Assembly (NCBI GenBank): GCA_963580285.1
Contig: CAUZLF010000728.1
Coordinates: 124,127 to 188,126, forward strand
Direction of reading: 5' to 3'
Length of the DNA stretch: 64,000 bases
DNA from: Lucinisca nassula
Lineage: Eukaryota; Mollusca; Bivalvia; Lucinida; Lucinidae
Shown here: positions 38,010 through 63,683 of the stretch, piece by piece
Position numbering within the stretch: position 1 is the first letter of the stretch
How the letters are laid out: each line of letters begins with the position of its first letter
Made by a program: the position numbers and the translations under genes
The notes under the pieces: model-generated
The model's database searches: none
What the model saw: the letters and a program-made list of their open reading frames with translations, nothing else
Told to the model about the DNA's origin: nothing

Positions 38010-38674
38010 ATGGGAGTCCATGCTGCACCAGTAGAATACCAGGATCAGGCCTGGGAGACCATGCTGCACCAATAGTATACCTGGATTAGACCTGGGAGAC
38101 CATCCTGCACTAGTAGGATGCCAGGATCAGGCCTGGGGGACCATGCTGCACCCGTAGGATACCTGGATTAGGCCTGGAAGAGTATGCTACACCCGTAGGA
38201 TACCAATATCAGGCCGGGGAGACCATGGGGCACCCGATGATACCTGGTTTAGGCCTGGGAGAGCATGCTGCACCCGTAGGACACAAGGATAAGGACTGGG
38301 AGACCCTGCTGCACCAGTAATATACCAGGACCAGGGCTCTGAGACAATGCTGCACCTACCGGCCCCGATAGCTCAGTTGGTAGAATGTCCGCTCCGGGCA
38401 ACGGGAGGTCACGGGTTCGATCCCGGGCCGCGACATACCAAAGTCGTTAAAATGGTACTAGCTGCTCCTCGCTTGGCACTCAGATTTACGGGGTAGAGCT
38501 AGGACTGGTTGACCCAGTGTCAGGATAATGTGACTGGGTGTGGTATCATGTAATGTGTCTGGGACATGATAATTCCGTGAGGCAGCACTATAAAAGTGAG
38601 CATTGAGCTCCCTGTCGCAACCAGACACCGTCGTGATATGACTGAAAAATTGTTGAAAGCGACGTTAAACCCGA

Positions 38675-38743
<69 letters not shown>

Positions 38744-41700: not shown

Positions 41701-43336
41701 TAAGGCCTGGGAGAGCATCCTGCACCAGTAGGATGCCAGGATCAGGCCTGGGAGAGAAACCTGCCCCCGTAGGATATCTGCATCAGACTTAGGACCATGC
41801 TGAACCAGTAGGATACCTTGATCAGGTCTGGGGGAGAATGCTGCACCCGTAGGTTACCAGGATTGTTACTGGAAGAGCATGTTGCATCAATAGGATACCA
41901 GGATCAGGCCTGGGAGATCGTGCTCCTCCAGTAGTAAAACAGCATCAGGCCTGGGAGAACATGCTGCACTAGGATGATACCTTGTTCAGGTCTGGGGGAG
42001 TATGCTGCACCAGTAGGATACCAAGGTTAAGCCTGAGAGACCATGTTTAACCAGTTGATTATGCCTGTGAGAGCTTGCAGCACCCGTAGAAGAGCACGCT
42101 GCACCCGTTGGATACCAGGGTCAAGCCCGAGGGACCATGCTAGGAGAGCCTGTTACACACCATGGATACTAGGGTCAAGCATGTTATACCATGCTGCACC
42201 AGTAGGATATCAGGATCAGGCCTGGGAGAGCATGCTGCACCAGTGGGATACCAGGGTCAAGCCTGAGAGACCATGCTGCACTAGTAGGTTTACAAGATCA
42301 GGTCTGGTAGACGATGCTGCACCCGTAGGATATCAGGACCAGGCATTGGAGAGCATGCTGCACCAGAAAGATAACAGGGTCATGCATGCGATACCTTACT
42401 GCACCAGAAGGATAACTTGGTCATGCCTGAGGGACCACGATGCACCCGTAGTATAACAGGGTCAAGCCTGGAAGAGCCTCCCCTACCCGTATTAGACCGG
42501 ATCACGCCTGGATGAGCATTCTGCACCAGTAAGATTCCAGGGTCAAGCCTGTGAAACCATGCTGCACTAGTAGGATACAGGGATTAGGCTCGGGAAAGCA
42601 TGCTGCACCCGTAGAATACTAGGATCAAGCATGAGAAACCATACTGCTCCAGTAAAATAGCAGGATCAGGCCTGGGAGAGCATTAGGCACCCAAAGGTTT
42701 CGATGATCAGGCCTGGGAGACCATGCTGCACCCGAAGGATATCAGGGTAAAACATTGGAGACCATGCTGCACCAGTAGGATACTAGGACCGGGCATGATG
42801 CAGCAGAACATGATTAGGCATGGGAGACCATGTTCTACCCGTAGGATACCAGGATCAGGCCAGGGAGAACCCATGCCTGTTTACCTGGATCAGGCCTGGG
42901 AGACCATGCTGCACCGGTATGGTACCTAGACCTGGCCTGGGAGAGCATGCTGCAACCGTATGATACCAGGCTCAAGCCTGCGAGACCATGCTGCATCAGT
43001 AGGATACATTGATCAGGTCTCGGAGAGCATGCTGCACCCGTAGGATACCTGGATCAGGCTTGGGAGAGCATGCCGCACCGGTATGATACTTGGATCAGGC
43101 TTGGGATACCATGCTGCACCGGTAGGATACCAGGCTCAAGCCTGAGAGACCATGCTGCACCAGTAGGATACCAGGTTCAAGCCTGAGGGACCATGCTGCA
43201 CCATAAGGATACCTGAATCAGGCCTTTGAGAGCATGCTACATCCGAAGGATACCTGGATCAGGCTTGGGAGACCATGCTTCACCCGTGGGATAGCAGGAT
43301 CAGGCCTGGTTGCTACCCTAGGATACCAAGCTCAAA
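38010..43336 (+). repeat. 41-bp satellite, plus-oriented part 1
   Basis: Tandem units of about 41 bp, built as GGATCAGGCCTGGGAGA, then (G/C)CATGCTGCACC, then CGTAGGATACCA. Units often alternate between GAGAGCATGC and GAGACCATGC forms, giving an 82-bp step, and each holds AGGCCT and GCATGC palindromes. Larger repeats are visible: 39,287-39,510 recurs at about 40,549-40,770. A SINE interrupts at 38,357-38,740. Since 41 is not a multiple of 3, stop-poor frames repeat every 41 codons; I treat them as artefacts. Confidence 0.9.
38357..38740 (+). mobile_element. tRNA SINE (family C) with (CA)n tail
   Basis: The tRNA-like head is well preserved: TAGCTCAGTTGG box A at 38,369-38,380 and GGTTCGATCCC box B at 38,414-38,424. 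The body ends 'GAAAGCGACGTTAAACCCGA', followed by a (CA)n tail of 63 nt (38,678-38,740). A perfect 11-bp duplication AATGCTGCACC (38,346-38,356 and 38,741-38,751) is satellite sequence. The intact boxes and long simple tail suggest a young copy. It is not a tRNA gene: the acceptor stem does not close. Confidence 0.9.
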
Positions 43337-44597
43337 GTAGAAGTAAAACAAAGATCAGGAATTGATACAATTAACTTACTCCACCCATAAAAGACACCAA
43401 AGGGAAAGAAATACAAACATTAAGCGACAAGACAATAATGGAAACCTAAACAAAGGAAGGCCATAAGGACAGTTACTTTCCCACAAAATGGCCATATGGC
43501 CATCCAAAATAAAAAGACAAAAGTGATACACACAGTAAGTAACAAACAGCAACATAAATAAATCGCCACAGAAGAGCCGCCTTGGAACGGTCAGTGGAAG
43601 ATTTCCACTGGGGGGTTTAAATCGATTTTACGTGGCCACAATCCTCGCCCTTACTTCCGTCGCGATTTAGACAAATAATTTGTTCAGTCCGCATGAAGGC
43701 CTCCTAACTCATCAGTGCAACATCTCCGTGAACACAAAAATCAAAGAACCACAGAGGTGAGACAAAGGTGAGGACTCGACAGCAAGAAACCACTGAAATG
43801 CTGGAGCAAAAGAAAACCAACAGTTAGACTCCGATGAGCCCGACCAGAGACAGAACATCAGGCACCAACCAACATTACCTTGAATTAGATCTCTCTAATT
43901 CTCAATAAGCCTTTACGTTGGAGCCGTCATAGAATCTGAGGCCTGACCCACCGGCGTGCAATTAAAGAGGGAAGCAAAGTTGCCAACCGTGATTGGGTTA
44001 ACTACCATGCATGCAGTCTGTCGTATAATATCCATGTTGTACCCAATCTTTTTATATCGAAGAATGATTTTACGAAATTGGGTGCTGAAGTCATTGCGGT
44101 TAAATATTTTTCTGAATTTATATACTAAGTCACCATAAAATTCGGGTTCCGATAGACCTTGTTGCAGAAGAGATTTAAGTCCAATATTGAATTTTGAAAT
44201 TAAATCAGAATGGCGTCTATAAAATTTTGAAAAGGCTTTGCGTAGTTTATGGTACCGATAACCTTGATTAAGGAGCCTAGCCGTCAACAATTTATTACGA
44301 GTGTTGAAGTCAGTTACATGACTACACACTCTAGCAAATCGAACCAACTGCGAAATATAAACGCCATAGGATGGCGCACGAGGAACATCACCATCCAAAA
44401 AAGGAAAATTTACAATCTCAAAATCAAAGTCATCGCGTTTATCATAAATTTTGCACGAAACAAATCCATCTACAATAGATAGATGTAAATCCAAAAATGG
44501 GGCCTCGGTATCAGAAGAATTTGCTTTATTTAACTGAAGCTCTGGGGGGTAAATCTGACTGATCAAACCATCAAAATAGGTATTATCAATGGAGACA
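43337..44597 (-). mobile_element. 5'-truncated Penelope-like retroelement copy
   Basis: Inserted in the satellite (left flank '...ACCAAGCTCAA', right flank 'ACAAGCCTGGG'). On the minus strand it holds the end of a polymerase frame (43,913-44,594) and a 3' UTR of about 570 bp. Its distal part (43,339-43,692) matches 31,676-32,085. ATGGCCATATGGCCAT lies near 43,488-43,503. The corresponding place in the inverted satellite copy (about 51,720) is empty. Confidence 0.7.
43913..44594 (-). pseudogene. reverse transcriptase C-terminal fragment, Penelope-like
   Basis: Open from the 5' truncation (reading SIDNTYFDGLISQIYPPELQ) to the stop at 43,913. Visible motifs are EAPFLDLHLSI, KIYDKRDDFDFEIVNFPFLD, SYGVYISQLVRFARV, GYRYHKLRKAFSKFYRRH, GLSEPEFYGDLVYKFRKI and VVNPITVGN. 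From memory these belong to a widespread invertebrate RT family, in which this segment follows the catalytic aspartate pair directly. The FLDL motif after the catalytic core suggests Penelope-like elements. The catalytic residues themselves are lost to truncation, so it cannot be active. No GIY-YIG domain is seen. Class assignment is moderately sure; that it is an RT tail is surer. Confidence 0.65.
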
Positions 44598-47500
44598 AGC
44601 CTGGGAGACCATTCTGCACCAGTAGGATACCTTGATCAGGCCTGGTAGAGCATGCTGCACCGTAGGTTACCAGTAAAACCTGGGGGACTATGTTGCACCA
44701 TGAGGATAACAGGATCAGGCCTGGAACACCATCCTGCACCCGTACGATGTCAGTATCAGACCTGGGAGAGCATGCTACACCCGTAAGATACCAGGGTCAA
44801 GCCTGAGAGACCATGCTGCAGCCATGGAATACCTGGGAGTGCATGCTGCACCAGTAAGATACCAGGATCAGGCCCTAGAAAGCACGTTGCTCCAGTAGGA
44901 TACCGGGGTCAAGCCTGAGAGACCATGACTGGGAGACAATGCTGCATCCGTAGGATACCAGGATCAGGCAAGTGAGAGCATGTCTCACCCGTAGGATACA
45001 AGGGTCAAGCCTGAGAGACCATGTCGCGCCAGTAGGATACCTTGGTCAGGCCTGGGAGAGGATGCTGCAGTCGTAGGATTTGGACACCATGCTGCAATGG
45101 TATGATGCCTGGATCAGGCCTGTGAGAGTATGCTGCACTCGTAGGATAAGAGACCCAAGCCTGAGAGACAATGCTGTCCCTGGTTGGATACCTGGATTAG
45201 CTGAGAGAGCATGCTGCACCGGAAGGATACCAACATTAGGCCTGGTATACCATGCTGCACCAGTAGGATAACAGGATCAGGCCCGAGATGCCATGCTACA
45301 CCTTGTGGATAATAGGATCAGGTCTGGGGGAGCATGCTGCATCTTGGGGATATCGGATCAGGATATGTAAAGCATGCTGCGCCGGTAAGATACCAGAATC
45401 AAGCGTGGGAGAGCATGATGCACCCGTAGGATTCCAGGGTCAAGCCAGAGAGACCATGTTGCACACGTAGGACACCAGGATCAGGTGGGAGACCATGCGG
45501 CACCAGAAGGACGCCAGGATCAAGCCTGAGAGAGCCTGCTGCACCCGTAGGATATCAGGATCTGGCTTGGGTAGCATGCTGCACCCGTAGGATAACAGGG
45601 CCAAGAGTGAGAGGTGATGCCGCACCAGTAGAATACCTGGATCATGCCTAGGGGACCATGCTGCACCCGTAGGTCAAAACTGTGAGAGCATGCTGACCCC
45701 GTAGGATACCAGGATTTCGCAAGGGAGAGCATGTTGCACCAGTAGCATACCAGTGACAAGCCTGAGAGGCCATGTTGCACCAGTAGGATACCTGGATCAG
45801 GCCTGCGAGACCATGCTGCACCCTAAGGATACCTGCACCAGTACCTGCACCAGGGCTGTGACAGCATTATGCACCCATAGTACAGCAGGATCAGGCCGGT
45901 GATACTATGCTGCACTAGTAGGATACCACGATCAGACCTTGGAGAGCATGCTGCAACCGTAGTATACTAAGATCAAGCCTGGGAGGGCATGCTGCACTAG
46001 AAGGATAACAGGATCAGGATTGGGAGAAGATGCTGCTCCCGAAGGATACCAGGATTAGGCCTGGGTGAACATGCTGCACCACCAGGAAACCGGGATCAGG
46101 ACTGGGAGAGCATGTTGCACCCATAGTACATCAGGATCAGGCCTGTGATACCATGCTGCACTATTAGGATACCAGGATCAGACCTTGGAGAGCATGCTGC
46201 AACCGCAGTATTCTAAGATCAAGCCTGGGAGAGTATGCTGCACCAGAAGGATATCAGGATTGGGAGAAGATGCTGCTTCCGTAGGATACCAGGATCAGTC
46301 CCAAGTGATGGTGCTGCACCACCAGGAAACCGGGACCAGGCCTGGGAGAGCATGCTGTACCCGTAGTATATTATGATCAAGCCTGGAAGAGCATGCTGCA
46401 CCAAGAGGATAACAGGATAATGCTTGGGAGACCATGCTTCACCCGTAGGATACAAGGATAAGGCTTGGGTGACCATGCTGCCTCACTAGGATACCTGCAT
46501 CAGGCCTGGGAGAGCACACTGCACCCGTAGGAAAACAGGATCAGGCCTGGGAGAGTATGCTGCAACAGTGGGATACTTAGGATCAGGCCTGGGAGAGAAT
46601 GCTGACCCCGAAGTATACCAGGATCAGGCCTCGGAGAGTACGCTGCACCCGTAGGAGTCGATGGTCAGGCCTGGGATACCATGCTGCACCTGTAGGATAC
46701 CTGAATTAGGCCTGAGAGAGCATGCTGCACCTGTAGGACACTGGGACCAGGCCTAGGAGAGCATGCTGCACCCGTAGGATACCGGGATCAGGCCTGGAGA
46801 CCATGCTGCAACGGAGGTTCCCTGGATCAGGACAGGGAGAGCATGCTCCATCCGTAGGATACCGGGATCTGGCCTTGGAGACATTCCTGCACCCGTAGGA
46901 TACCATGGTCAAGCCTGAGAGACCATGCTCAACCAAAGAATAACAGGATCATGCCTGGGAGTCCATGCTGTACCCGTTGGTTACCAGGGTCAAGCCAGAG
47001 AGACAATGATGCACCAGTGGGATAACTGGATCAAGCCTAGAAGACCATGCTGTACCTGCAGGGTACCAGGATCAGGCCTGGAAGAGCATGCTTCACTAGA
47101 AGGATAACCGGGTCATGCCGCGGATAACTTGCTGCATCCAAAGGATAACTGAGTCATGACTGGGGGGGGGGGGGGTCATGCTGCACCCGTAGAATAACAG
47201 GGTCAAGCCTGGGAGAGCTTGCTGCACCCGTAGCATACCAGGATATGGCATTGGAGAGCATGCTGAACCAGTAGTATACCTGGATCAAGCCTGGTAGACC
47301 ATGTTGCACGCGTAGGATAACTGCATCAGGCATGTGTGAGCATGCTGCAACCACAGGACACCAGGATAAGGCCTATTAAATTATGCTGCACCAGTAGGAT
47401 ACGAGGATCAGGTCTGGGAGAGCATGCTGCAGCAGAATAATAACAGGTTTAGGCCTGGGAGACCCATTTAGCATCCGTAGGAGACCAGGATCAGGCCTAG

Positions 47501-47810
47501 GAGAGCATGCTACACCCGTAGGATACAAGGGTCAAGCCTGAGAGACCATGCTGCACCAATAGGATACCTGGACCATGCTGCACAAGAAGGATACCTGAAC
47601 AGGCCTTGTAGAGCATACTGCCTTCGTAGGATACCTGACCCTTGCTGCACCGGTATGGTGCCTGGGAGTGCATGCTGCAACCGTAGGATAGCAGGCTCAA
47701 GCCTGGGAGACCATGCTGCACCAGTAGGATACCTTCATCAGGTCTTGGAGAACATGCTGCACCCTTAGGATACCAGGATCTTGCCAGTGAGACCATTCTG
47801 CACCAGCATA
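44598..47810 (+). repeat. 41-bp satellite, plus-oriented part 2 (left arm of inverted duplication)
   Basis: Same units as part 1. Landmark variants read on the minus strand reappear in order from 47,975 to about 51,710. For example, the rare 'AAAACTGTGAGAGCATGCTG' variant at 45,666 matches 50,580-50,640, and the 'CTTGGGGATATCGGATCAGG' variant at 45,344 matches about 50,940. A G13 run lies at 47,163-47,175. Confidence 0.85.
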
Positions 47811-47974
47811 TACCCGATCCAGGTATACTACTTGTGCAGCATGGTCTCTTAGGCTTGATCCAGGTATCCTACAGGGTAAGCATGCTCTCCCAGGCCTGAT
47901 TCTTGAATCCTACTGGTGCAGCATGCTCTCCAAGGCCTAATCCTGGTATCCTACGGGTGCAGCATGGTCTCACA
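47811..47974. repeat. satellite orientation switch (axis of inverted duplication)
   Basis: At about 47,811-47,820 ('CCAGCATATACCCGATCCAG') the units change from plus to minus orientation. About 160 bp of minus-oriented units form the spacer before the arms pair. Confidence 0.8.
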
Positions 47975-48890
47975 TGCCTGATCCTGTCATCTTTCTGGTG
48001 CAGCATGGTCTCCCAAGCCCGATCCTGGTAACCTATGGATGCAGCATGCTCTCCAAGACCTGATCAAGGTATCCTTCTGGTGCAGCATGGTCTCTCAGGC
48101 TTGAGCCTGGTATCCTACGGTTGCAGCATGCACTCCCAGGCCTGATCCAGGTATCATACCGGTGCAGCAGGGTCTCCGTGGCATGAGTCAGGTATCTTAC
48201 GGGGGCAGTTTGCTTTCCAAGGCCTGATCCAGGTATCCTCCTGGTACAGCATGGTCTCTCAGGCTTGACCCTGGTATCCTTCGAGTGTAGCATGCTCTCC
48301 CAGGCCTGATCCTGGTATCCTACCGGTGCAGCATGGTCTACCTGGCATGTTCTCTCAGGCTTGACCCTGGTGTAGCATGCTCTTCCAGGCCTGATCTTGG
48401 TATCCTACGGGTGTATCATGCTTTCCCAGGCGTGATCCAGGTATCCTGTCTCACAGGCCCTATCCTGGTATCCTAAGGGTGCAGCATGCTCTCCCTGGCC
48501 GTGTCCTGGTATCCTACTGATGCAGCATGGTCTCACAGGCCTTTTCCTGGTATCCTACGGGTGCAGCATGCTCTCCAAGGCCTAATCCAGGTATCCTACT
48601 AGTGCAGCATGGTCTCTTAGGCTTGACGCTGGTATCATACGGGTGTGGCATGCTCTCCTAGGCCTGCTCCTGGTATCCTACGGATGCTAAATGGTCTCCC
48701 AGGCCTAAACATGTTATTATTCTGCTGCAACATGCTCTCCCAGACCTGATACTCTTATCCAACTGGTAGCATGATTTCATTGGCCTTATTCTGGTGTCCT
48801 GTGGGTGCAACAAGCTCTTCCAGGCCTGATGCAGTTATCCTACGGATGCAACTTGGTCTCCCAGGCTTTATCCAGGTATACTACTGGTTT

Positions 48891-49196
48891 TGTTTGATTT
48901 GTTTGATCTGAGGTTTAACGTCCCCGTCAACATGTAAAGGTCATTTTGAGGACGTTGCTTCCAATTTTGTGGGACTTTTACCCGACATTGAGATGAAATT
49001 ACACCTCAAGCCCTGTCGTCCAATGTAACCAATAGGGTTATTGGCATGGACGGTCCGCCTCGCACCATGGTTCCTGGACAGGCTTAGATCCTCTAAGCGG
49101 TTTACCAGTACTAGTGTGCGGGCCGGATTCAGCTCTGCGTGGAAGCATCATGCAGCCCATATATTTCTTCAAGCCCCTATGGGCGGGAGCTTATAG
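48891..49196 (-). mobile_element. SINE (family A), full length
   Basis: Minus strand: head GCTCCCGCCCATAGGGGCTT, body as in other A copies, tail GACGTTAAACCTCAGATCAA plus ACAAATCAAACA. A 9-bp duplication TACTGGTTT occurs at 48,882-48,890 and 49,197-49,205. The same site is empty in the other satellite blocks (about 47,275 and 53,560). Confidence 0.85.
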
Positions 49197-52100
49197 TACT
49201 GGTTTAACATGCTCTCCAATGCCATATCCTGGTCCCCTTTTGGTGCAGCATGCTCTCCAAGGCCTGATCCTGGTATGCTACGAAAGCAGCAAGCTCTCCC
49301 AGGCTTGACCCTGTTATTCTACGGGTGCAGCATGGCTCCCAGGCATGACTCAGTTATCCTCCTGGTGCAGCAAGTTAACCCAGGCATGACCCTGTTATCC
49401 TTCTGGTGAAGCATGCACTTCCAGGCCTAATCCTGGTACCCTGCGGAGGCAGCATGGTCTCCTAGGTTTGATCCAGTTATGCCACTAGTGCAGCAGTGTC
49501 TCTCTGGTTTGATCCTGGTATCCTACGGGTGCTGCATGGACGCCTAGGCATGGGCCTGTTATTCTTTGGTTAAGCATTCTCTCAGGCTTGACCCTGGTAT
49601 CCTACGGGTGCAGCATGATCTCCAGGCCTGATCCCGGTATCCTACGGATGAAGCATGCTCTCCCTGGCCTGATCAAGGGAACCTCCGGGTGCAGCATGTT
49701 CTCCCAGGCCTTATCCCGGTATCCTACGGGTGCAACATGCTCTTTCAGGCCTGGTCCCGGTGTCCTACAGGTGCAGCATGCTCTCTCAGCCCTGATCAAG
49801 GAATCCTACTGGTGCAGCATGGTATCCAAGGCCTGATCTACGAATCCTACAGGTGGCGAAAGCTCTCCCAGGCCTGATCCTGGTATCATACTGGTACAGC
49901 ATGGTCTCCCAGTCCTGATCCTGTTACACTTCTGGTGCTCTCCCAGGCCTGATCCCGGTATACTACGGGGACCGCATGCTCTCCCAGGCCTGATCCTAAG
50001 TATCCCACTGTTGCAGCATACTCTCCCAGGCCTGATCCTGGTATCCTACGGGTGCAGCATGCTCTCCCAGGCCTGATTCAGGTATCCTAGTGATGCAACA
50101 TGGTCACCCAGGCCTAATCCTGGTATCCTACGGGTGCAGCATGGTCTCCCAAGCCTTATCCTGTTTTCCTCTTGATGCAGCTTGCTTTTCCAGGCTTGAT
50201 CCTAATTTACTACGGGTGGAGCATGCTCTCCCAGGCCTGATCCCGGTATCCTAATGTTGCAGCATGATCACCTGGGCGTGACCCTGGTATCCTACGGGAG
50301 CAGCATCTTCTCCAAATTCTGATATTCTTGTGGTGCAGCATGCTCCCCCAGGCATGATCTTAGTATACTACGGTTGCAGCATGCTCTCCAAGGTATGATC
50401 CTGGTATCCTAATAGTGCAGCATGGTATCACAGGCCTGATCCTGATGTACTATGGGTGCAGCATGCTCTCTCAGGCCTGATGCAGGTATCCTTAGGGTGC
50501 AGCATGGTCACGAAGGCCTGATCCAGGTATCCTACTGGTGCAACACGGCCTCTTAGGCTTGACACTGGTATCCTACTGGCGAAATCCTGGTATCCTACGG
50601 GTTCAGCATGCTCTCACAGTCTTGACCTACGCGTGCAGCATGGTCCCCTAGCTTTGATCCAGGTATCCTACTGGTGCGGCATGATATCTCACTCTTGACC
50701 CTGGTATCCTACGGGTGCAGCATGCTAACCAAACCAGATCCTGATATCCTACGGGTGCAGCAGGCTCTCTCAGGCTTGATCCAGGCGTCCTACTGGTGCA
50801 GCATGGTCTCCCTTGCCTCATCAGGCGTCCTACGTACGCAACATGGTCTACCTGGCTTGACCCTGGAACCCTACGGGTGCAGCATGCTCTCCCAGGCTTG
50901 ATTCTGGTATCTTACCGGCGCAGCATGCTTTACATGGCCTAATCCGATATCACCAAGATACGGCATGCTCTCCCAGGCCTGATCCTGGTATCCACATGGT
51001 GTAGCCTGGCATCTCGGGCATGATCCTGTTATCCTACTGGTGCAGCATGGTATACCAGGCCTAATGTTGGTATCCTTCGGGGGCAGCATGCTCTCCCAGG
51101 CCTAATCTAGCTATCCTACTGGTGCAGTATTGTCTCTCAGGCTTGGACCTCGTATCCAACGAGTGCAGCATACTCTCACGGGCCTGATCCAGGTATCATA
51201 CCGGTGCAGCATGGTGTCCCAATCCTACGACTGCAGCATCCTCTCCCAGGCCTAACCAAGGTATCCTACTGGTGCGGCATGGTCTCTCAGGCTTGACCCT
51301 GGTATCCTACGAGTAAACATGCGCTCCCATGCCTAATCCTGGTATCCTACGGATGCAGCATGGTCTCCCAATCATGATCTCTCAGGCTTGACCCCGGTAT
51401 CCTACGGGTGCAACATGCTCTCCCAGGCCTGATCCTGGTATCTTACTGGTGCAGCATACTCTCCCAGGCATGGTCCTGGTATTCTATGCGTGTAGCATGG
51501 TCTCTCAGGCTTGACGCTGACATATTACGGGTGTAGCATGCTCTCCCAGGCCTGATTCTGGCATCGTACGTGTGCAGGATGGTATCCCAGGCCAGATCCT
51601 GTTATCATCCTCTTGCTGCATAATCTCCCAGGCTTGATACTGGTAACCTACGGTGCAGCATGCTCTACCTGGCCTGATCAAGGTACCCTACAGGTGCAGA
51701 ATGGTCTCTCAGGTTTTTGCTTGGTATCATAGGGTAGCAGCATGCTCAGCCTGGCCTGATCCAGGTATCCTACCGGTGCAGCATGGTCTCCCAAACCTGA
51801 GCCAGGTATTCTACGGGTGTAGCATGCTCTCCAAGGCCTGGTTCCGGTATCCTTCTGGTGCAGCATGGATTCTCAGGCTTAAGCCTGGTAACATACGGGT
51901 GTAGCATGGTCTCCCAGGCCTGATCCTGGTATCCTACTGGTACAGCATGGTTTCTCAGGCTTGAGTCTGGTATCCTACCGGTGCAGCATGGTCTCCCAAG
52001 CCTGATCCAAGTATCATACCGGTGCAGCATGGTCTACCAAGCCTGATCCAGGTATCTTTCGGGTGCAGAATGCTCTCCGAGGCCTGATCAATGAATCCTT

Positions 52101-53375
52101 CTGATGCAGCATGGTCTCTTAGGCTTGAGCCTGGTATCATACGGTTGCAGCATGCTCCCCCAGGCCTGGGCTAGGTATCATACCGCTGCAGCATGGTCTC
52201 CCAGGCCTGATCCAGGTACCCAGGCATGGGTCTCCTGGCCAGATCCTGGTATCCTACGGGTGGAACATGGTCACCAAAGCCTAATCCAGTTCCTCAGCAT
52301 CATGCTCTCACAGGCCTGATAAGGTATACTGCGGGTGCAGCATGCTCTCCTAGGCCTGATCCTGGTATCCTACTGGTGCAACATGGTCTCACATGCCTTG
52401 TCCTGGTGTCCTGTGGGAGCAGCATGGTCTCACAGGCCTGATCCTGTTATCTTTCTGGTGCAGCATGGTCTCCCAGGCCCGATCCTGGTAACCTAAGTGT
52501 GCAGCATGCTCTCCAAGACCTGATCCAGGTATCCTACTGATGCAGCATGGTCTCTCAGGTTTGACCCTGGTATCCTACGGTTGCAGCATGGACTCCCAGG
52601 CCTGATCCAGGTATCATACCGGTGCAGCAGGGTCTCGCAGGCATGATTCAGGTATCCTACGGGGGCAGTATGCTTTCCAAGGCCTGATCCAGATATCCTC
52701 TTGGTGCAGCATGGTCTCTCAGGCTTGACCCTGGTATTCTTCGGGTGTAGCATGCTCTCCCAGGCCTGAATCTGATATCCTACCGGTGCAGCATGGTCTC
52801 TCGGGCATGTTCTCTCAGGCTTGACCCTGGTGTAGCATGCTCTCCCAGGCCTGGTCTTGGTATCCTACAGGTGCAACATGCTTTCCCAGGCCTGATCCAG
52901 GTATCTTACTGGTGCAACATGGTCTTCCAGGCCTTATCCTGGTATCCTAGGGGCGCAGCATGCTCTCCCTGGCCTGGTCCTGGCATCCTACTGATGCAGC
53001 ATGGTCTCACAGGCCTTTTCCTGGTATCCTACGGGTGCAGCATGCTCTCCAAGGCCAAATCCAGCTATCCTTCTAGTGCAGCATGGCTTGACCCTGGTAT
53101 CATACGGTTGTAGCATGCTCTCCTAGGCTTGTTCCTGGTATCCTACGGATGCTAAATGGTCTCCCAGGCATAAACATGTTATTATTCTGCTGCAGTATGC
53201 TCTCCCAAGCCTGATACTGGTATCCTACGGGTGCAGCATGCTCTCCAAGACCTGATCCTCGCATCCAATTGGTCAGCATGATTTCATTGGCTTTAGACTG
53301 GTGTCCTGTGGGTGCAACATGCTCTCCCAGGACTGATGCAGTTATCCTACGGGTGCAACAGGGTCTCCCAGGCTT

Positions 53376-53541
53376 ATTCGAAAATCGCAAAATTGCAGTA
53401 TGTTTCCTCTGGCTTTCTTTGCCGGATCATTACAGGGTCACTGATGATGCTTTATTAGCCGAAACTACGAAGTATGACCCATCTTCTTTCTTATGAATGT
53501 TTTCATTGCTCTTAAAGGAACTCATTTTTTGATTTTTATTT
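53376..53541 (+). mobile_element. 166-bp insert with hammerhead ribozyme: candidate retrozyme
   Basis: Non-satellite DNA between 'CCCAGGCTT' and 'GATCCAGGTATACTACTGG'. The homologous places in other blocks read straight through, so the insert is precise. It is AT-rich, has no coding capacity, and carries the hammerhead at 53,435-53,480. Small non-autonomous retrozymes of animals are known as short monomers with type I hammerheads, spread by other retroelements. Membership here is inference. No clear target duplication was seen. Confidence 0.65.
53435..53480 (+). ncRNA. type I hammerhead ribozyme
   Basis: Stem I GGGTCA (53,435-53,440) pairs perfectly with TGACCC (53,475-53,480). Core CTGATGA is at 53,441-53,447. 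Stem II GCT-TTATT-AGC lies within 53,448-53,460, with a T/C mismatch at the core-proximal pair. Core GAAA is at 53,461-53,464. Stem III ACT-ACGA-AGT runs 53,464-53,473. The cleavage-site base is A53,474, in an allowed GTA triplet. All core bases are present. The mismatch in stem II may slow it. Predicted cut: between 53,474 and 53,475. Confidence 0.8.
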
Positions 53542-56500
53542 GATCCAGGTATACTACTGGTTCAGCATGCTCTCCAATGCCATATACTGGTACCCTATTG
53601 GTACAGCATGCTCTCTAAGGCCTGATCCTGGTATGCAACGGATGCAGCAAGCTCTCCCAGGCTTGACCCTGTTGTTCTACGTGTGCAGCATGGCCCCCAG
53701 GCATGACTCAGTTATCCTTCTGATGCAGCAAGTAATCCCAGGCCCTGTTATCCTTCTGGTGAAGCATGCTCTTCCAGGCCTGATTCTGGTACCCTGCGTG
53801 TGCAGCATGGTCTCCTAGGCTTGATCCAGGTATGCCACTGGTGCAGCATTGTCTCTCTGGCTTGACCCTAGGATCCTACGGGTGCAGCAAGGACTCCTAG
53901 GCATGAGCCAGTTATTCTTTGGTTGAGCATTCTCTCTGGCTTGACCCTGGTATCCTACGGGTGCAGGATGTTCTCCCAGGCCTGAGCCCGGTATCCTACG
54001 GATGTAGCATACTCTCCCTGGCCTGATCCAGGGAACCTCCGGGTGCAGCACGGCCTCCCAGGCCTTATCCCGGTATCCTACGGGTGCAGCATGCTCTCCA
54101 TGGCCTGGTCCCGGTGTCCTACAGGTGTAGCATGCTCTCTCAGCCCTGATCCAGGAATCCTACTAGTGCAGCATGGTATCCCAGGTCTGATCTTCGAATC
54201 CTACAGGTGGCGAATGCTCTCCCAGGCCTGATCCTGGTATCCTACTGGTGCAGCATGCTCTCCCAGGCCTGATCCTAGTATACTACGCGGACCGCATGCT
54301 CTCCCAGGCCTGATCCTAAGTATCCCACTGTTGCAGGCCTGATCCTGGTATCCTACGGGTGCAGAATGCTCTCCCAGGCCTGATCCAGGTATCCTAGTGA
54401 TGCAGCATGGTCACCCAGGCCTGATCCTGGTATCCTACGGGTGCAGCATGGTCTCCCAAGCCTTATCCTGTTTTCCTCTTGATGCAGCTTGCTCTTCCAG
54501 GCTTGATCGTAATATGCTACGGGTGCAGCATGCTCTCCCAAGCCTGATGCCGGTATCCTAATGTTGCAGCATGTTCACCCGGGCCTGATCCTGGTATCCT
54601 ACGGGTGCAGCATCTTCTCCCAATCCTGATATCCTTCGGGTGCAGCATGCTCTCCCAGGCTTGATCTTAGTATACTACGGTTGTAGCATTCTCTCCAAGA
54701 TCTGATCCTGGTATCCTTATAGTGCAGCATGGTATCACAGGCCTGATCCTGATGTACTATGGGTGCAGCATGCTCTCTCAGACCTGATGCATGTATCCTT
54801 ATTGTGCAGCATGGTCCCGAAGGCCTGATCCAGGTATCCTACTGGTGCAACACGACCTCTCAGGCTTGACACTGGTATCCTACTGGTGCAACATGCTCTC
54901 CCATGCGAAATCCTGGTATCCTACGGGTTCAGCATGCTCTCACAGGCTTGACCTACGGGTGCAGCATGGTCCCCTAGGCATGATCCAGGTATTCTACTGG
55001 TGCGGCATGACCTCTCACTTTTGACCCTGGTATCCTACGGGTGCAGCATGCTACCCAAGTCAGATCCTGATATCCTACGGGTGCAGCAGGCTCTCTCAGG
55101 CTTGATCCTGGCGTCCTACTGGTGCAGCATGGTCTCCCATGCCTGATCCTGGTATCCTACGTGTGCAACATGGTCTCTCTGGCTTGACCCTGGAATCCTA
55201 CGGGTGCAGCATGCTCTCCAAGGCTTGATTCTGGTATCCTACGGATGCAGCATGGTCTCTCTCTCAGGCTTACAATGGTGTCCCAGGCCTGATCCTGTTA
55301 TCCTCCTGGTGCAGCATAGTCTCCCAGGCTTGATACTAGTAACTTAGGGTGCAGCATGCTCTACCTGGCCTCATCAAGTTGCCCTACTAGTGCAGAATGG
55401 TCTCTCAGGCTTTAGCGTGGTATCATAGGGTAGCTGCATGCTCAGCCAGGCCTGATCCAGGTATCCTACCGGCGCAGCATGGTCTCCCAAGCCTGAGCCA
55501 AGTATCCACGGGTGTAGCATGCTCTCCCAGGCCTGGTTCAGGTATCCTTCTGGTGCAGCATGGTCTCTCAGGCTTAAACCTGATAACCTACGGGTGTAGC
55601 ATGGTCTCCCGGGCCTGATCCTGGTATCCTACTGGTGCAGCATGGTCTCTCAGGCTTAAGCCTGGTATCCTACCGGTGCAACATGGTCTCCCAAGCCTGA
55701 TCCAAGTATCATACCGGTGCAACATGGTCTCCCAAGCCTGATCCAGGTATCCTTCGGGTGCAGAATACTCTCCGAGGCCTGATCAATGTATCCTACTGAT
55801 GCAGCATATTCTCTCAGGCTTCAGCATGGTATCCTACGGTTGCAGCATGCTCTCCCAGGCCTGGTCCAGGTATCATACCGGTGCAGAATATTCTCCCAGG
55901 CCTGATCCAGGTACACAGGCATGGGTTCTCCTTGCCTGATCCTGGTATCCTACGGGTGGAACATGGTCACCCAGGCCTAATCCTGTTCTGCTGCATCATG
56001 CTCTGGCAGGCATAGGCCTGATACAGGTATCCTGCGAGTGCAACATGCTCTCCTAGGCCTGATCCTTGTATCGTACTGGTGCAGCATGGTCTCACAGGCC
56101 TTGTCCTGGTGTCCTGCGGGTGCAGCATGCTCTCCAGACTTGTTGCAGTTATCCTACGGATGCAGCATGGTCTCCCAGGCCTGATCCAGGTATACTACTG
56201 GTGCGACATGCCCTCCCATGCCATATCCTTTTATCCTTCTGGTGCAGCCTGCTCTCCCAGGCCTGATCCTAGTATCCTGCGGGTTCAGCACAGTCCCCAA
56301 GGCATGACCCAGTTATCCTTCTGGTGCAGCAAGGTATCCCAGGCATGACCCTGTTATCTTTCTAGTGGAGCATGTTCTTCGATGCCTGATCCTAGTATCC
56401 TTCGTGTGCAGCATGGTCTCCCATGCCTAATCCACTGATGCAGCTTTGTCTCTCAGGCTGGTATCCTATGGGTGCAGCATATTCTCAAAGGCCTAATCCT

Positions 56501-59463
56501 GGTACCATACGGGTGCAAAGTCTCTCAAGCCTGATCCCGGATACAGCATGATCCTGTAATCCTACGGGTTTAGCATGGTGTCTTATGCTTGACACTGGTC
56601 TCCTTCGGAGGCAACATTTTCTCCCAGGCCAGATCTCGATATCCTACGGGTGCAGCATGCTCTCCCTGGCCTGACACAAGTGTCCTACGGGTGCAGGATT
56701 GTCTCAAAGGCCTGATCCCGGTATCCTACGCGTGCAGTATGCTCTCCCAGGCCTGATCCCGGTATCCTACGGGTGCAGTACGCTTTTCCAGGCTTGATTC
56801 AGGTATCCTTCTGGTGCAGCATGGTCTCTCAGACTTGACCCTGGTATCCTACGGGTGCAGCATGCTCTCCGAGGCCTGGTCCTGGTATCCTATGGGTGCA
56901 GCATGGTCTCCAAGGCCTGATCCTGTTATCCTTCTGGTGCAGCATGCTCTCCCAGGCCTGATCTGGAATCCTACGGGTGCCGAATGCTCTCTCAGGCCTG
57001 ATCCTGGTATCCTACGCGTGCAGTATGCTCTCACAGGCCGGATCCCGATGATCTACGGGTGCAGCATGCTCTACCAGGCTTGATCCAGGTATCCTACTGG
57101 TGCAGCATGGTCTCACAGACTGGACCCTGGTATCCTACGGGTGCAGCTTGCTCTTTGAGGCCTGACCATGGTATCTTATGGGTGCAGCATGGTCTCCAAG
57201 GCCTGATCCTGTTATCCTGCTGGTGCAGCATCTTCTCCCAGGCCTGATCTGGAATTCTACGGGTGCCGAAAGCTCTCAGTGACCTGGTCCTAGTATCCTA
57301 CTGGTGCAGCATGATCTCTCATGTTTTACCCTGATATCCTTCTGGGCAGCATGCTCTCCTAGGCCTGATCATCGAAACCTTCGGGTACCTAATGCTCTCC
57401 CAGGCCCGATCCTGCTATCTTAATGGAGCAGTATGGTCTCTCATGATTGATCCTAGTATCCTACGGATGCAGCATGGTCTCCCTGTCCTTATACTTTTAT
57501 CCTTCTGGTACTGCATGCTCTCCAAGGCCTGATCCTGGTATTTTACGGGTGCAGTATTCTCTCCCGACCGTAGTATCCAAAAAGTGCAACAGGCTCTGCT
57601 TGATCGAGGTTGTCCTGATGAAGCATGGTCTGTCTCCTTAGGGTGCAGCATCGTCTCTCAGGTCTTATCCCGGTATCCTACGGATGTAACATGCTCCCCA
57701 AGGCCGAATCCAGGTATCATACGTATGCAGCATAGTCTCTAAGTCCTGATCAAGGTACCCTTCTGGTGCAGCATGGTCTCTCAGGCTTGATCCTGGTATT
57801 CTAAGGTTGCAGCATGCTCTAAAGTCCTGATCCTGGTATCCTACGGGTGCAACATGGTTTCCCAGTCCTGATCCTGTTACCCTTCTGGTGCAGCATGCTC
57901 ATCCAAACCTGATTATGGTATTCTACGGAGGCCGCGTGCTCTCCAAGGCCTGAAACTGGTATCCTTCTGGTACAGCATGCTCTCTCAAGCCTGGTTCTGG
58001 TATTCTATGGAGGCCGTATGCTCTACCATACCTGATGCTGGTATCCTCCTGGTGCAGCAGGGTCTCATCCTGGTGTTCTATGGGTGCAGCATGCTCTCCC
58101 AGGCCTGATCAAGGTATCCTACTGCTGCAGCATGGCCTATCAGGCTTGACACTGGTATCCTACTGGTGCAGCATCCTCTCCCATGCCAGATTCTGGTATT
58201 CTACGGTTGCACATGGTCTCCGAGGCTTGACCCTGGTATTCTACCGGTGCAGCATGGTCTCCCATACCTGCTCCTGGTATCCTACCGATGCAGCATGCTC
58301 TTCCGGGCCTCATCCAGGTATTCTACTGGTGCAGCATGCTCTCCCGGGCCTTATCCTGGTATCCTACTGGTGCAGCATATTGTCTCAGGCTTGACCCTGG
58401 TATCCTTCGGGTGCAGAATGCTTTCCCGAGCCTAATTCATGTATCCTACTGGTGCAGCATGATTTCACAGGCTTGACCCTGGTATCTTACTGGTGCAGAA
58501 TGTTCACCCAGGCCTGATCCCGGTATAATACTGGTAGGGGATGCTCTTCCAGGCTTGACCCTGTTGTCCTACGGGTGGTCCCTCTGGCATGGCCAAGTTA
58601 TCCTTCTGGTGCAGTAAGGTATCGCATGCATGACCCTGTTATTTTTCTGGTGCAGCATGCTCTCCAATGCCTGATCCTGATATCTTACGGGTGCAGCAAT
58701 GTCTCCAAGACCTGATCTTGTAATCCTACTGGTGCAGCATGGTCTCTCAGGCTTGGCCTAATATCCCACTGGTACAGCATGCTCTCCAAGGCCTGATCCA
58801 TGTATCCTACGAGTGCAGCATGCTCTCCCATGCCTGATCCTGATATCCTACTGGTGCAGCAAAGTCTCACAGGCTTGACCCTGGTATCCAACGTGTGTAG
58901 CAGGCTCTCCCAGCAGGGTCCCTCAGGCTTGACCCTGGTAGTCAACGGGTGCAGTATGCTCTTCTACGGGTGCTGCAAGCTCTTGCAGGCATAATCCAGG
59001 TTTTCAACTGGTTCAGCATGGTTTCTAGGGCTTAACCTTGGTATGCTACTTGTGCAGCATACTTTCCCAGACCTGATCCAGGTATCATGCTGGTGCAGCA
59101 TGTTCTCACAGGCCTGATGCTGGTTTACTACTGGAGGAGCACGATCTCCCAGGCCTGATCCTGGTATCCTATAATAGTGACAGTTGCAGTTGTACCGGTT
59201 AAATTCATTGTTTACATCGAGGATAAAATATATAAAAGATAATATATTTAAAGATCTTTTTCCGTGAATATGAACACTGAATAATGTGGAGATATATTCG
59301 TTATTTTGCATGTCTGGATACGATTATGTCAGAGGTCTGTGATTTTCGATATTTTTTATATGATTAATAACTGTTGGAGAATATTTTGAACTGTGTGTCG
59401 ATGAATTTATCCAGGTGTTCATGACTTAACTGTGTTTACCTGCCTGAGATAATAACTTCTATT

Positions 59464-60057
59464 ATGTTGGTCTATTGTTTTCATCTATTGTATGGTCTAT
59501 GGTCGATAACAGAATTTCGCTGCCAGCAACAACTACTTTTTGTGACGTGCCTTCTATTAACCAGTATACTATTCATTTGTCAAAGGACACTAGTAATGGG
59601 ATTGCAGAATGATAACGTATCCGTTATGCTTGGCCATGATGAATATAGTTGCCGGAATACCCTGGGTATAACAACTGTAGTACCATCGATTTTCGATGGT
59701 ATTTTATGCCAGGATATGGTCCCTGTTTTTTTTTTTTGGCGTCTACAAAGCACATACATCAACGGAGCTTGTTTTGAATTTACGAATAGTTGTATGTGTG
59801 AACACTTATTAGTCCTTTCAGCTGATGTTAAATTAAATCCGGGACCGACAAGTGAAGAAACGGAGAGATTATTAAATTCGAAAGCAGCAAGCGAAAGCAG
59901 GGTCCTAGGAGAAATTAGATCGGCGAAAGACGACATGGCGGTCATCAAAACTGAAATAGTATCAATAAAAGAAGATTGTGTAAAAACAAAACTGGAGGTG
60001 AATGAAATCAAACAAAAGCAATTGAAAAACACGACGAAGATAGATAAAGCGATATAA
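59464..60057 (+). pseudogene. LINE ORF1, N-terminal part with 2A-like motif
   Basis: 197 codons. Residues 1-40 are hydrophobic (e.g. LLFVTCLLLTSILFIC). Residues about 114-128 read HLLVLSADVKLNPGP, in which DVKLNPGP (59,824-59,847) fits the D-V/I-x-x-N-P-G-P core of 2A ribosome-skipping peptides. After it come about 65 residues of heptad-like, charged sequence (ETERLLNSKAASESRVLGEI...), a likely coiled coil. Published work reports 2A-like peptides at the N terminus of some invertebrate non-LTR elements; that this one is functional is untested. A stop at 60,055-60,057 ends the frame. The ORF1 sequence continues in another frame from 60,063. Confidence 0.75.
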
Positions 60058-60062
60058 ACGAG

Positions 60063-60680
60063 ATGTATGGGTTGCAGGATCAAATGCAAATGGATATAGA
60101 TCAACTGCACGACGACTCTCTAGCCAAGATTGATTTAATGGAAGGTATTGGGGAGGAATTAGATACACTCGATCCCCGTACTCGAAAAGATACTATGAGG
60201 ACATTCGGTCTGCAAGAATCTGATTATGAATCATTCAATGAGTTGCGTGCATATATTGTAGATCAGGTTTTAAAAGTAGATTGTCCCGACAAAAAATGGG
60301 AATCGGATGACATAAAAACAGCGTTTGGGACTGGTTATTATGAAATTCAGACACGATGATGATAAGTATGGGATATATAAGGACCGTGACGCACTCCGGC
60401 CATGTGGCATTAGGGTGGGAAATGATCTAACCCGCCGTTAGCGAGAAAAATTAAACGCTATTAAGGAACAAGGGAAGATGGGTTATTTCCTTAATGGAAA
60501 ATTACATTTGATTACAAATGGTCCAAATCAGCAATCGATTAGACAGGAAACCAACCGTAGGAAATTAAATGAGGATACAGATAGAAACGAACCAATCAAC
60601 ATGGTATTAGACAATCCAGATGAGGTTACGACAGATCACGATACTGTCTTCCGTGATTATAACGCTGATACAAAATAGGA
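60063..60680 (+). pseudogene. LINE ORF1, C-terminal part, broken
   Basis: Resumes as MYGLQDQMQMDIDQLHDDSL, then TRKDTMRTFGLQESDYESFN and a region 'DIKTAFGTGYYE'. A shifted frame gives YGIYKDRDALRPCGIRVGND before an in-frame stop at about 60,438-60,440. It continues as REKLNAIKEQGKMGYFLNGK and ends at about 60,678. The order (coiled coil, then an RRM-like nucleic-acid-binding region, then a short C-terminal domain) resembles L1-type ORF1 proteins. At least one frameshift and one stop. Confidence 0.65.
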
Positions 60681-60718
60681 TGCTGGCCAAAGCCCAAATA
60701 ATGATACAGAACTTAGAT

Positions 60719-61541
60719 ATATGGTTTGGAATATTGATGACTTATTATCAATATCAAAAGTGGACGACTTAGAACTAACGAATTATTTGTACACATTTTA
60801 TATTATCGGACTTGTTGAAACATGGGTTACTGATATGTCAAAGGTGCACAACTTACTCAACAGTTATCACTGTTATTTTTGTAGCGCCATAAAAAAACTC
60901 AAACTACGGCCGTCCAATGGCTGGAATTATTGTCTACATTCGAAAATCTATTTCGAAGTTGATCACAACGTGTAGGTTGTTATGCAACATTCGGTGTTTT
61001 TCTTGTAACAGACAAAAGATTATTAAATTGTGAAAAAGACGTGGTGCTCTTCTGTATACTTTATTTGCCACCAGAAAGATCACCATTTTATTCGAACTTA
61101 CCATATGAAGGTATTAAACTTTTAGAAGATCTTTTATTGAACCTTGATATAAATATAGTTGAGTTTTAATTGGTGATTATGGGTAATTTAAATGCTAGGA
61201 CTTCCAAAGAAGACGATTTTCTTTCAATTGATAAACTTGTCCCCGAGTTAGAGGAATATCGTGAAATTTTGAACGATAACTGTCCCAAAAGGGTATCTTC
61301 TGACCAAATGGTAAATAATTTTGGTGCTGACTTATTAGATGTCTGTAAAACTTACTCTGTACGTATATTAAATGGACACACATGTGCGGATTCCAATGTA
61401 GGCGAATTTACCTTCATAGGTCCCTCTGGTAGTAGTGTGATAGACTTCGCTATATGCAGCGAGTCCCTTCGCCAGAGAATAAAGGCATTTGAGATAGGGG
61501 AGGGACAGAATCCACCCATTTCCCAGTTTTATTAAACATTG
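60719..61541 (+). pseudogene. LINE ORF2, AP-endonuclease domain, broken
   Basis: MVWNIDDLL holds the N-terminal W-N-I motif. GLVETWV (Glu at 60,817-60,819) is the catalytic Glu region. After frameshifts at about 60,900-61,165 comes MGNLNART (61,179-61,202), where the expected catalytic GD(L/F)N has Asp replaced by Asn (61,185-61,187). GEFTFIGPSGSSVIDFAICS matches the family's S-x-IDF/Y stretch. The final SDH segment is lost after a frameshift near 61,500. Confidence 0.75.
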
Positions 61542-62270
61542 CTGCAAATAAAGAGGTAAACAGTAAACACATAGACAATACATTCACGCAGACTTTCACA
61601 CGATATTCTTTCGACGACACAAATAAAACCACGTTTCGGGAACTATTACAAAGTGAATTGAACGGAGGTAAATTTGTTGAAGTTATACATGGAATAGAAT
61701 CAAATGGGTCCGATATCAATGGTATAATTAATAAATGCCAAAATTTGCTCCTAGAAACCAGTGAATGTTGTAGAAAGCGTTATACTAAGTGTGCTACAAA
61801 AGACGAACCGTGGTTTAATAAACAGTGTAAAATATTAAAAACAGAAACGAACAAGTCACTGAGGGACTACAGAAGGACAAGGACAGTCAATAATTTTCAA
61901 AAATATAAACAAGATAGGAATCATTTTAAACAGGAATGTAATTCGGCGAAAAACAAATTTAAACGTGATAAACTAGAATGTTTGATCGAGTCTTTGAGTA
62001 GCCCAAAATCATTTTGGAAAAAAGTTAAAATTATTGTTTAATAAGAAAACTAATGTTGAAAGCAATATAAATATTGATCAATGGAAAGACTATTTTGAAA
62101 CACTGTTTGAGTCCGATAATTATTCCGAGGAGGAAAATACTAACACTATATTCGAGGATGAACCCGAGGTTGACGAAATAGAGGAAATTCTACGAGATGT
62201 GCGCACATTGAAAGAAATAAGTCCGCGGGACCAGATGATATAGTTCTGGGCTTATTTATTTATTGTATAG
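61542..62270 (+). pseudogene. LINE ORF2, linker between endonuclease and RT, broken
   Basis: The frame at 61,658-62,041 reads MNGGKFVEVIHGIESNGSDI, then DEPWFNKQCKILKTETNKSL and NHFKQECNSAKNKFKRDKLE, typical linker motifs. It shifts at about 62,036 to 'WKDYFETLFESDN' and stops at 62,241-62,243. Confidence 0.7.
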
Positions 62271-63683
62271 ACATGATTCTCCCAATGTTACATAAACTAT
62301 GGAATCGTCTTTTTTCAACCGGAGAATTTCCTGAAGATTGGTCAGGATCTATTATTGTCCCCTTACATAAGCGTGGTGATGTAAATGACCCTGCAAATTA
62401 TAGGGGTATTTCACTTCTAGATAAATTTGAGAAGCTATATACGAGTATACTGAATAGACGAATAACTTTCTATGTAAATATATACGATAAATGATCAGAA
62501 TCCCAATCCGGATTTAGAGAGTCTTATTCAACAACCGATAACGCATTTGTTTTGCAAGCATTGATAAACAGACACATTTCACCAAAAAGGCCGAAAACTC
62601 TATGTAGCTTTTGTTGACTTTAAACAGGCCTTCGATAAAGTGAATAGGAACAAATTATAGTCTGTTTTATAAAAAGCTGGATTTAAAGGTAAACTTTACA
62701 GTGCGTTGACAGAGATTTACAAACAGGTTAAAGCGAAAGTACGTGCCTGTGGTGGACTAAGTGAGAGTTTGAATTGCCCTACCGGTTTGCAACAATGTTG
62801 TATGTTATCGTCGGCTTTATTTACATTGTCCATTAATGAATTCGCTGAAATAATTGAGAATAGTGGAACACAGGGTGTACAATTATTCCCAGAGGAGATT
62901 CAAGTCCTCATATTGTTTTGCCGATGATATAGCTTTGATTAGTGAACCTGTAATAGGGCTTCAGAGACAGTTGAATCTGTTACTATCATACTGTAAAGAA
63001 AGCAAGTTAATCGTAAATATTATAAAAACAAACATTATGATCTTTAGAAATGGAGGCCGTATCTCCCGACTTGAAACGTGGTATAATGATGGTAAACTAT
63101 TAGAAGTTGTTAACTGTGTCTCGTATGGTGGGCTTGCGTTTTCCACTACAATGTCATTCAACCGTATGTGTTCAGAACTTTCCAAAAAAAAAAAAAAACA
63201 TGTTTTAGTGTCGCTTCCGTCTTCCCTATATGAATATGGTCAGTTACCTAAACATACCTTCTTCAAGTTGTTTGACACAAAAGTTTTACCGATTTTAGTG
63301 TATGGTTCAGAAATATGGGGATTCACACTAAATTACGCGTTAGAACAAGGTCATCTGTATGCAAGTAAAAGTTCCATGTGCGTAGGTATAAAATCATGTA
63401 ACGCTGTGGTTCTTGGTGACTGTGGTCGATGTATTCGAAAATTTCTCCATGCGCTTAAGCAAATGAGAACTGGACACCATGACTTAGAAATAGAAAGGGG
63501 CGTTATAGAAACATCCCAAGGCAACAAGGACTTTGCAAGTTATGTGTAACAGATGTTGAAGACGAGTACCATTTTATAATGCATTGTAAAACATATGGTG
63601 AACTGCGAAAGCCATACCTACCACACAAGTTTTATAACATACCAATGATACATAATTTCAATAAGCTGATGTGCTCTAAATGA
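62271..63683 (+). pseudogene. LINE ORF2, reverse transcriptase and C-terminal CCHC, broken
   Basis: First RT motifs at 62,273-62,494 (PEDWSGSIIVPLHKRGDVND, PANYRGISLLDKFEKLYTS). 'SQSGFRESYSTTDNAFVLQA' follows in another frame. Motif A, VAFVDFKQAFD, has catalytic Asp at 62,616-62,618, then a Trp-to-stop change (62,658-62,660). 'TGLQQCCMLSSALFTLSINE' has QCC in place of the usual QGC. FADD is intact (Asp pair 62,923-62,928). 'KVLPILVYGSEIWGF' follows. After a final frameshift near 63,530, the last 49 codons give CKLCVTDVEDEYHFIMHC (C-x2-C...H-x4-C) and the stop at 63,681-63,683. At least five lesions, so no active protein. Confidence 0.8.

Follow-up and report, generated by a model that had tools for sequence, protein, structure and literature searches.

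A Lucinisca nassula satellite holds a dead, 5'-truncated copy of a retrozyme that has its boundary module and insertion points in common with an abundant Penelope-like element, its likely helper

How does a hammerhead ribozyme come to lie inside a satellite of the lucinid bivalve Lucinisca nassula, and what copied the small insert that carries it into DNA? Animal retrozymes give rise to abundant circular RNAs, and the helper that copies them into DNA is an open question. Metazoan non-LTR retrozymes have been described from, among others, the mussel Mytilus galloprovincialis, with units of ~350-390 bp and two hammerhead families (Cervera and de la Pena 2020, PMC7229834). The available text of that paper and of PMC7761336 contains no motif indicating the helper and names LINEs or Penelope-like elements (PLEs) as candidates; in the accessible portion of a 2024 review (PMC11722881) the helper is still given as LINEs or PLEs. 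We analysed a stretch of 64,000 nucleotides, here called the window, and searched the genome to which it belongs. We consider the insert to be a dead, 5'-truncated copy of a retrozyme whose boundary module and insertion points recur in an abundant PLE; the protein of this PLE likely copies retrozyme RNA into DNA, and we put the probability of this reading at roughly 0.7. If a PLE is indeed the helper, the open question would be answered.

The insert splits a monomer of a 41-bp satellite at CCCAGGCTT^GATCC, GATCC being its 3' flank from position 53542 (Table 1). The initial annotation was right that the satellite is interrupted here, and its bounds, 53376-53541 (166 bp), shift slightly to 53377-53541 (165 bp). 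The insertion recurs within a ~3 kb duplicated piece of the satellite on two other chromosomes (L002, 97.6%; L003, 98.6%). The hammerhead reads GGGTCA-CTGATGA-TGC..GCC-GAAA-CTACGAAGTA/TGACCC, where the slash marks the cleavage site predicted by reading the letters, between 53474 and 53475. The parts listed earlier are all present, namely a 6-bp stem I, CTGATGA, GAAA and a 3-bp stem III with a 4-nt loop, and so is the stem II mismatch near the core, a T-C at the stem base (T53448 versus C53460) at a position that is G-C in most relatives. Because both duplicates keep a G at the position of T53448, the mismatch is most simply read as a later mutation. With stem II damaged, activity of the window copy is unsupported.

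Table 1. Features of the window, in window coordinates
Feature	Position	Strand	Support
5'-truncated family B retrozyme copy (unit 132-260 of 261)	25307..25435	+	91.5% over 129 bp
Family B hammerhead, core damaged (GAAA to TAAA)	25307..25352	+	R1 62.6 bits, E 1.3e-16; Rfam 13.9 bits, type III
Second PLE fragment, 3' untranslated part only	31680..32062	+	86.7% over 383 bp
41-bp satellite	38011..59171
5'-truncated PLE in the 41-bp satellite	43334..44590	-	97.3% and 98.6% to other copies
C-terminal part of the PLE reverse transcriptase frame	43913..44590	-	genome matches
Satellite target site CCCAGGCTT(A), the 5' flank ending at the insertion point	53367..53376	+
Family A retrozyme copy, 5'-truncated, covering 220-384 of the 384-bp unit	53377..53541	+	98.8% to L008 unit over 165 bp
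Type I hammerhead	53435..53480	+	letters; 44.7 bits and E 4.5e-11 with R1 over 64 kb
Fixed 3' boundary of family A, directly after TTGATTTTTATTT; also end point of the window copy	53529..53541	+
LINE-like element frames	59425..63549
RVT_1 match in the LINE-like element	62854..63549		E 0.00038, below the curated cut-off

A search of this one genome (2.93 Gb, 696 contigs; best-scoring copies only) for further copies of the insert, as the initial annotation had advised, found many, dispersed and including tandem arrays. They are 97-100% identical to the insert among the best 40 of 1497 candidates, a figure that is not a copy number, and define a family, A, with a unit of 384 bp that often stands in head-to-tail arrays (4.8 copies with a 384-bp period and 98% matches in L008). 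With loci that overlap in the same array merged, and L002 and L003 likewise as duplicates, the 30 fetched loci reduce to 21 distinct sites on many chromosomes; 15 of the 21 hold more than one unit, up to 5.8 head to tail, and insert lengths range from 165 to 2232 bp. The arrays have no LTR layout, and the longest ATG frame overlapping one unit encodes 58 aa on the opposite strand. Since the unit is 384 bp, any circle would be 384 nt long; a circle of about 166 nt, as envisaged before, is unsupported, the window copy being a truncated monomer. The suggestion that the insert is a candidate retrozyme, by contrast, holds up: family A combines a type I hammerhead layout with 384-bp tandem units, a GC content of 38% (0.380), no frame above 58 aa and a spread over many chromosomes.

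A second family, B, came to light just under the cut-off in a genome search with the Rfam type I hammerhead family; the search for B loci covered the best 40 of 4667 candidates, again not a copy number. Its GC content is 0.414, and in the majority of arrays its unit measures 261 bp, as against about 262-266 bp in L034. Units of both families thus lie within about 150-450 bp and occur as dimers to multimers, with GC below 50%. A truncated B copy is also present in the window at 25307-25435, where the initial annotation had none, and stops at the fixed 3' boundary of its family. Units within an array resemble one another more than units of different arrays do, differing by 1.2% (14 arrays, 45 units) versus 2.9% in A and by 1.1% (15 arrays, 44 units) versus 3.4% in B, and none of 300 label shuffles gave values as low. 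One circle feeding one array could explain this similarity; homogenisation after insertion or tandem transcripts could do so too.

How were these arrays made? Their ends are informative. The 3' ends of A lie at unit position 383-384 at 20 of 21 distinct sites, and the query reached unit position 384 plus 9 nt, so that arrays could have extended past the boundary and did not. At the remaining site (L013) the array stops 12 nt early, at 372, possibly a second start point; two adjacent start points are reported, in the accessible part of the paper, for a PLE of Anolis (PMC11167929). The B ends fall at 258-261 at nine of ten sites and at 252 at one, and all 15 complete B arrays among L077-L092, including those whose 5' end lies beyond the fetched DNA, end at 256-261. 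These B counts are biased, because the loci were partly picked by alignment end: 14 of the 16 new loci were chosen for a last alignment piece ending near the same place and two for ending elsewhere, and of these two L092 proved to end where the others do, L091 extending beyond the fetched DNA. The 5' ends, by contrast with this fixed 3' boundary, fall at any unit position. Three A inserts with a start near unit position 1-3 begin a few bases before the end of the preceding unit, and no mapped insert starts at the predicted cleavage site, in numbers too small to mean anything. The 3' ends carry no poly(A). A fixed 3' end together with variable 5' ends fits copying that sets out from one position of the RNA and breaks off randomly, be it within the first lap or after several. 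A Pol III terminator, a candidate cause of the fixed end in view of the T-runs in A, was set aside because runs of five T are missing from the ends of B and the PLE.

The Penelope-like remnant that had been pointed out 9 kb from the insert turned out to be the key lead, because the element it belongs to has the boundary module and the insertion points of the retrozyme. The element is very abundant: matches to its reverse transcriptase (RT) frame in its own genome are 96-100% identical among the best 150 of 126520 first-look candidates, a figure that is not a copy number. Copies have variable 5' ends, with 5' truncation. In 28 of the 29 copies set against the reference L041, common sequence ends 582-585 bp beyond the last codon; one of the 28, L064, is a tandem junction, and the exception, L062, stops at 556. 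The second fragment in the window stops at this same PLE boundary (query 642 of 645). Five head-to-tail pairs, 4.15-4.4 kb apart, were found among the best 150 matches. We label the element Penelope-like, with a Naiad-like N-terminal endonuclease, on the strength of weak profile matches and architecture: RVT_1 matches 6 of 15 homologues (best E 0.0067) and GIY-YIG 2 of 15 (best E 0.01), neither profile matches the copy from its own genome, and an endonuclease-like frame lies upstream of the RT in L071, L093 and L076. GIY-YIG features are conserved in that region (QYVGQT, R20, E77/E79, N95). Naiad elements, the subject of a 2021 paper, reportedly carry an N-terminal endonuclease before the RT. 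In a fold comparison of the RT with the PDB, the seven best matches were telomerases (best E 3.6e-3, from a poor model with a mean pLDDT of 51); the endonuclease model was too poor for comparison, and PDB sequence searches returned nothing relevant. Many copies (e.g. L041, L076) have one open frame of 499 aa after the same stop, the endonuclease-like part standing in a separate upstream frame. Close homologues of the RT (P0025, P0033) are filed under genomes of Candidatus Thiodiazotropha, symbionts of lucinid clams, and may be host DNA contaminating symbiont assemblies. We also noticed a recurrent CACTGATGAG stretch in the 3' untranslated part of the PLE (L039-L068; 31680-32062 in the window) that looks hammerhead-like by eye; neither Rfam (one locus) nor R1 (11 loci) scored it. 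PLEs characteristically have a hammerhead motif in their pseudo-LTR.

What do retrozyme and PLE have in common? Past the boundary, which directly follows GATTTTTATTT in A and ACTTCTACTTT in the PLE, both contain the same 38-nt stretch, starting at the 22nd base after the boundary in A and at the 23rd in the PLE. This module is present in all five fetched tandem PLE junctions and in L064, with an identity to A of 36/38 in four junctions and 35/38 in one (L071), and at almost the same offset family B carries a diverged form of it. Outside the module, A, B and the PLE are unlike one another. The ungapped score of the module is 31, compared with at most 14 in 40 Markov shuffles. Searched with up to 5 mismatches, the 322 kb of fetched DNA gave 115 matches to its motif, every one of them within A, B or the PLE, a count in which overlapping loci figure more than once and five assignments were made by eye; prokaryote and viral contigs gave 0 matches to the pattern. 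In single-sequence folds, most A and B rows show a hairpin whose closing pairs are CTGCA:TGCAG in A and CTACA:TGTAG in B; two B rows have G-U intermediates. A conserved module hairpin is only suggested by these folds, because the consensus has no compensated pair: RNAalifold on 51 rows, in which the families are out of register, gave six pairs, none compensated, and an energy of -3.65, where column shuffles averaged -0.74 and went as low as -5.30. That the module sits immediately 3' of the start point in the PLE as well as in the retrozyme agrees with the scheme of PAc, a PLE of Anolis in which, according to the sections available, reverse transcription starts within the RNA and needs RNA 3' of the start (Frangieh 2024, PMC11167929).

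The insertion points tell a similar story. For 23 A, 11 B and 17 PLE sites we joined the 40-nt flanks and compared them with one another, a comparison confined to these three and therefore one-sided as to LINEs; two A sites (L044 and the stub in L040) and one B 5' flank (L091) were added to the set, and 17 of 30 loci supplied the PLE 5' flanks, the rest starting beyond the fetched DNA, being nested or serving as reference. Retrozyme-PLE pairs with similar flanks (E<1e-4) define five targets, and the insertion points coincide at four of them. One is a point inside the PLE reading frame (A in L017, PLE in L061); another is a dispersed repeat hit twice by A, once by B and once by the PLE, within ~1 base (L026, L028, L080, L056); the third is a 42-bp minisatellite in L040, with a PLE and a 23-bp retrozyme stub in adjacent monomers; and the fourth is the 41-bp satellite of the window, where the PLE at 43334-44590 is flanked 5' by CCCAGGCTT plus 6 extra nt and 3' by GAGCTTGG. 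At the fifth target (A in L014, PLE in L044) the points do not coincide. CTT occurs in the last 6 nt of the 5' flank at 12 of 23 A sites (background 0.050, p 2e-10) and 8 of 17 PLE sites (background 0.084, p 3e-5), and at 2 of 11 B sites, which is not significant (background 0.053, p 0.11). Where the uninterrupted site is known (L017, L019, L014, L061, L040, and L026 from a search covering the best 40 of 655 candidates, not a copy number), the junctions show neither duplication nor deletion, within 1-2 ambiguous bases.

Because module and insertion points are common to retrozyme and PLE, the PLE is the likely helper. Conceivably, the helper is instead a different but related PLE family, and the abundant one has the module and the target preference by descent only. 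A loci do have at least one other PLE-like subfamily, distinct in its 3' end, as a neighbour (L010, L029), and a module 36/38 identical within elements that are otherwise unlike would suit this scenario; yet the coinciding insertion points involve the abundant family itself (L061, L056, L040, L039), which is recent and very abundant, and we regard a different PLE as unlikely, though the most serious of the alternatives. Could an ordinary LINE-type retrotransposon copy the retrozyme RNA, the likeness to the PLE reflecting an origin of the retrozyme from PLE sequence? LINE copies, too, have fixed 3' ends with 5' truncation, and the window holds LINE remnants (RVT_1, E 0.00038), but the 3' ends lack poly(A), the known empty sites reveal no target duplication and, within a test one-sided as to LINEs, insertion points are common to retrozyme and PLE, which makes a LINE improbable. 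Marginally less credit still goes to a spread by DNA only, through satellite-like recombination and segmental duplication, in which the hammerhead would be irrelevant. The window copy was duplicated along with its satellite (L002, L003), and homogenisation could yield the similarity within arrays; against this stand 3' ends that are fixed and 5' ends that vary across many unrelated sites, the existence of empty sites and the retention of the core in most copies of two families that differ in unit length.

Is the hammerhead itself real? Rfam, the means of verification proposed at the outset, misses the window A copy: the whole window has 0 matches at gathering scores, and a search of 53200-53700 gave no hammerhead at E<=5. 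Intact A copies reach at most 20.3 bits, with the type III model (E 0.18), and Hammerhead_1, whose cut-off is 34, gives B copies 30.3-32.3 bits (all three L034 copies, with E between 5.4e-6 and 2.5e-5 over 851 bases). We therefore rely on a covariance model, R1, trained on nine family B hammerheads, whose E-values are rough; on A loci it gave 29 matches in ten of ten loci, with up to 52.1 bits. CTGATGA and GAAA are retained in 58 of 61 A hammerhead rows (two of them B-like), 52 of the 61 also having the G10.1-C11.1 pair at the base of stem II, and the core is kept in 45 of 54 B rows; covariation among the nine B hammerheads carries no information, since 131 of 500 shuffles reach the same level. 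A chance resemblance is scarcely credible, for although the window has no Rfam match at gathering scores, the genome none at the cut-off and 11 of 14 control genomes sub-cut-off RF00163 matches too, a model trained on the other family scores the window copy at E 4.5e-11, the core persists in those 58 A rows, and stem II pairs in both A and B despite its different sequence. Weak Rfam matches also came from L036 and L037; the one in L036 (1501-1566), below threshold and hammerhead-like, has a strong stem II and differs from A and B. Near position 1501 of L031, L032, L033 and L035, B-like hammerheads lie within long common flanks, as if a larger repeat had captured B.

How might the PLE act on the retrozyme? 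We infer ribozyme cleavage, circles and PLE action on retrozyme RNA from sequence, and envision the following scenario. Transcribed arrays would be cut by the hammerhead, at GUA/UGACCC in A and GUC/UGGCCC in B, into monomers of 384 or 261 nt, and the monomers closed into circles by a cellular ligase; cleavage and circular RNA have been shown for other animal retrozymes, according to the available text of PMC7229834. The PLE protein would then recognise the boundary module on the circular (or multimeric) RNA and cut DNA after CTT-like sites, with CAGGCTTGATCC as its predicted target sequence. Reverse transcription would begin internally, beside the module at the boundary, and run for 0.4 to 5.8 laps before it stops, so that 5'-truncated concatemers are inserted. 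The window copy would represent a 0.43-lap insertion into the satellite that was later duplicated with ~3 kb of satellite, its stem II mutating afterwards. More broadly, and with somewhat less assurance than for the window insert, we lean towards the view that animal retrozymes are parasites of PLEs that need only a hammerhead and a PLE start module, the protein docking on the latter, starting at one fixed base, rolling round the circle and pasting blunt, 5'-truncated concatemers after CTT.

As far as the accessible text of PMC7229834, PMC7761336 and PMC11722881 goes, type I animal retrozymes, including those of the mussel, are already known, and PLEs have been proposed as helpers. The families described here resemble the metazoan retrozymes of PMC7229834, as presented in its available parts, in having a type I hammerhead, tandem units that are short and low in GC, numerous dispersed copies and two related families per genome; unlike those, they have one fixed 3' boundary, a module common to a PLE, insertion points coinciding with it and no target duplication. 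The fixed boundary, the common module and the coinciding insertion points appear to be new: in the literature available to us, mostly outside subscription journals, we found no report of a boundary module or insertion points common to retrozyme and PLE. Plant LTR retrozymes, to judge from the accessible sections of PMC4918200 and PMC7761336, are likewise hammerhead-bearing and non-coding and are thought to spread via circular RNA, but have type III hammerheads, LTRs, a primer binding site and 4-bp target duplications; here we find a type I hammerhead, no LTRs and no target duplication. The PLE shares with PAc, as described in the portions of PMC11167929 at hand, in which retrozymes are unmentioned, a tandem organisation and a start point marked by the ends of genomic copies, an internal RT start being predicted here. 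It differs in that the endonuclease of PAc follows the RT, PAc cuts AT-rich sites and its start lies within the reading frame, whereas here the endonuclease-like region precedes the RT, insertion is often after CTT and the putative start point lies before the PLE frame.

If the PLE reading is true, this would be the first animal genome in which the helper of a retrozyme, its docking module, its start base and its target site are all identified, candidates for each being named by sequence alone. The internal RT start of one Anolis PLE would be extended to another kind of PLE, and it would become apparent that a PLE demands very little of an RNA it copies. As to the surroundings of the insert, the 41-bp satellite is composed of two inverted arms that meet near 47.8 kb, where both the orientation of its units and the GC skew flip.
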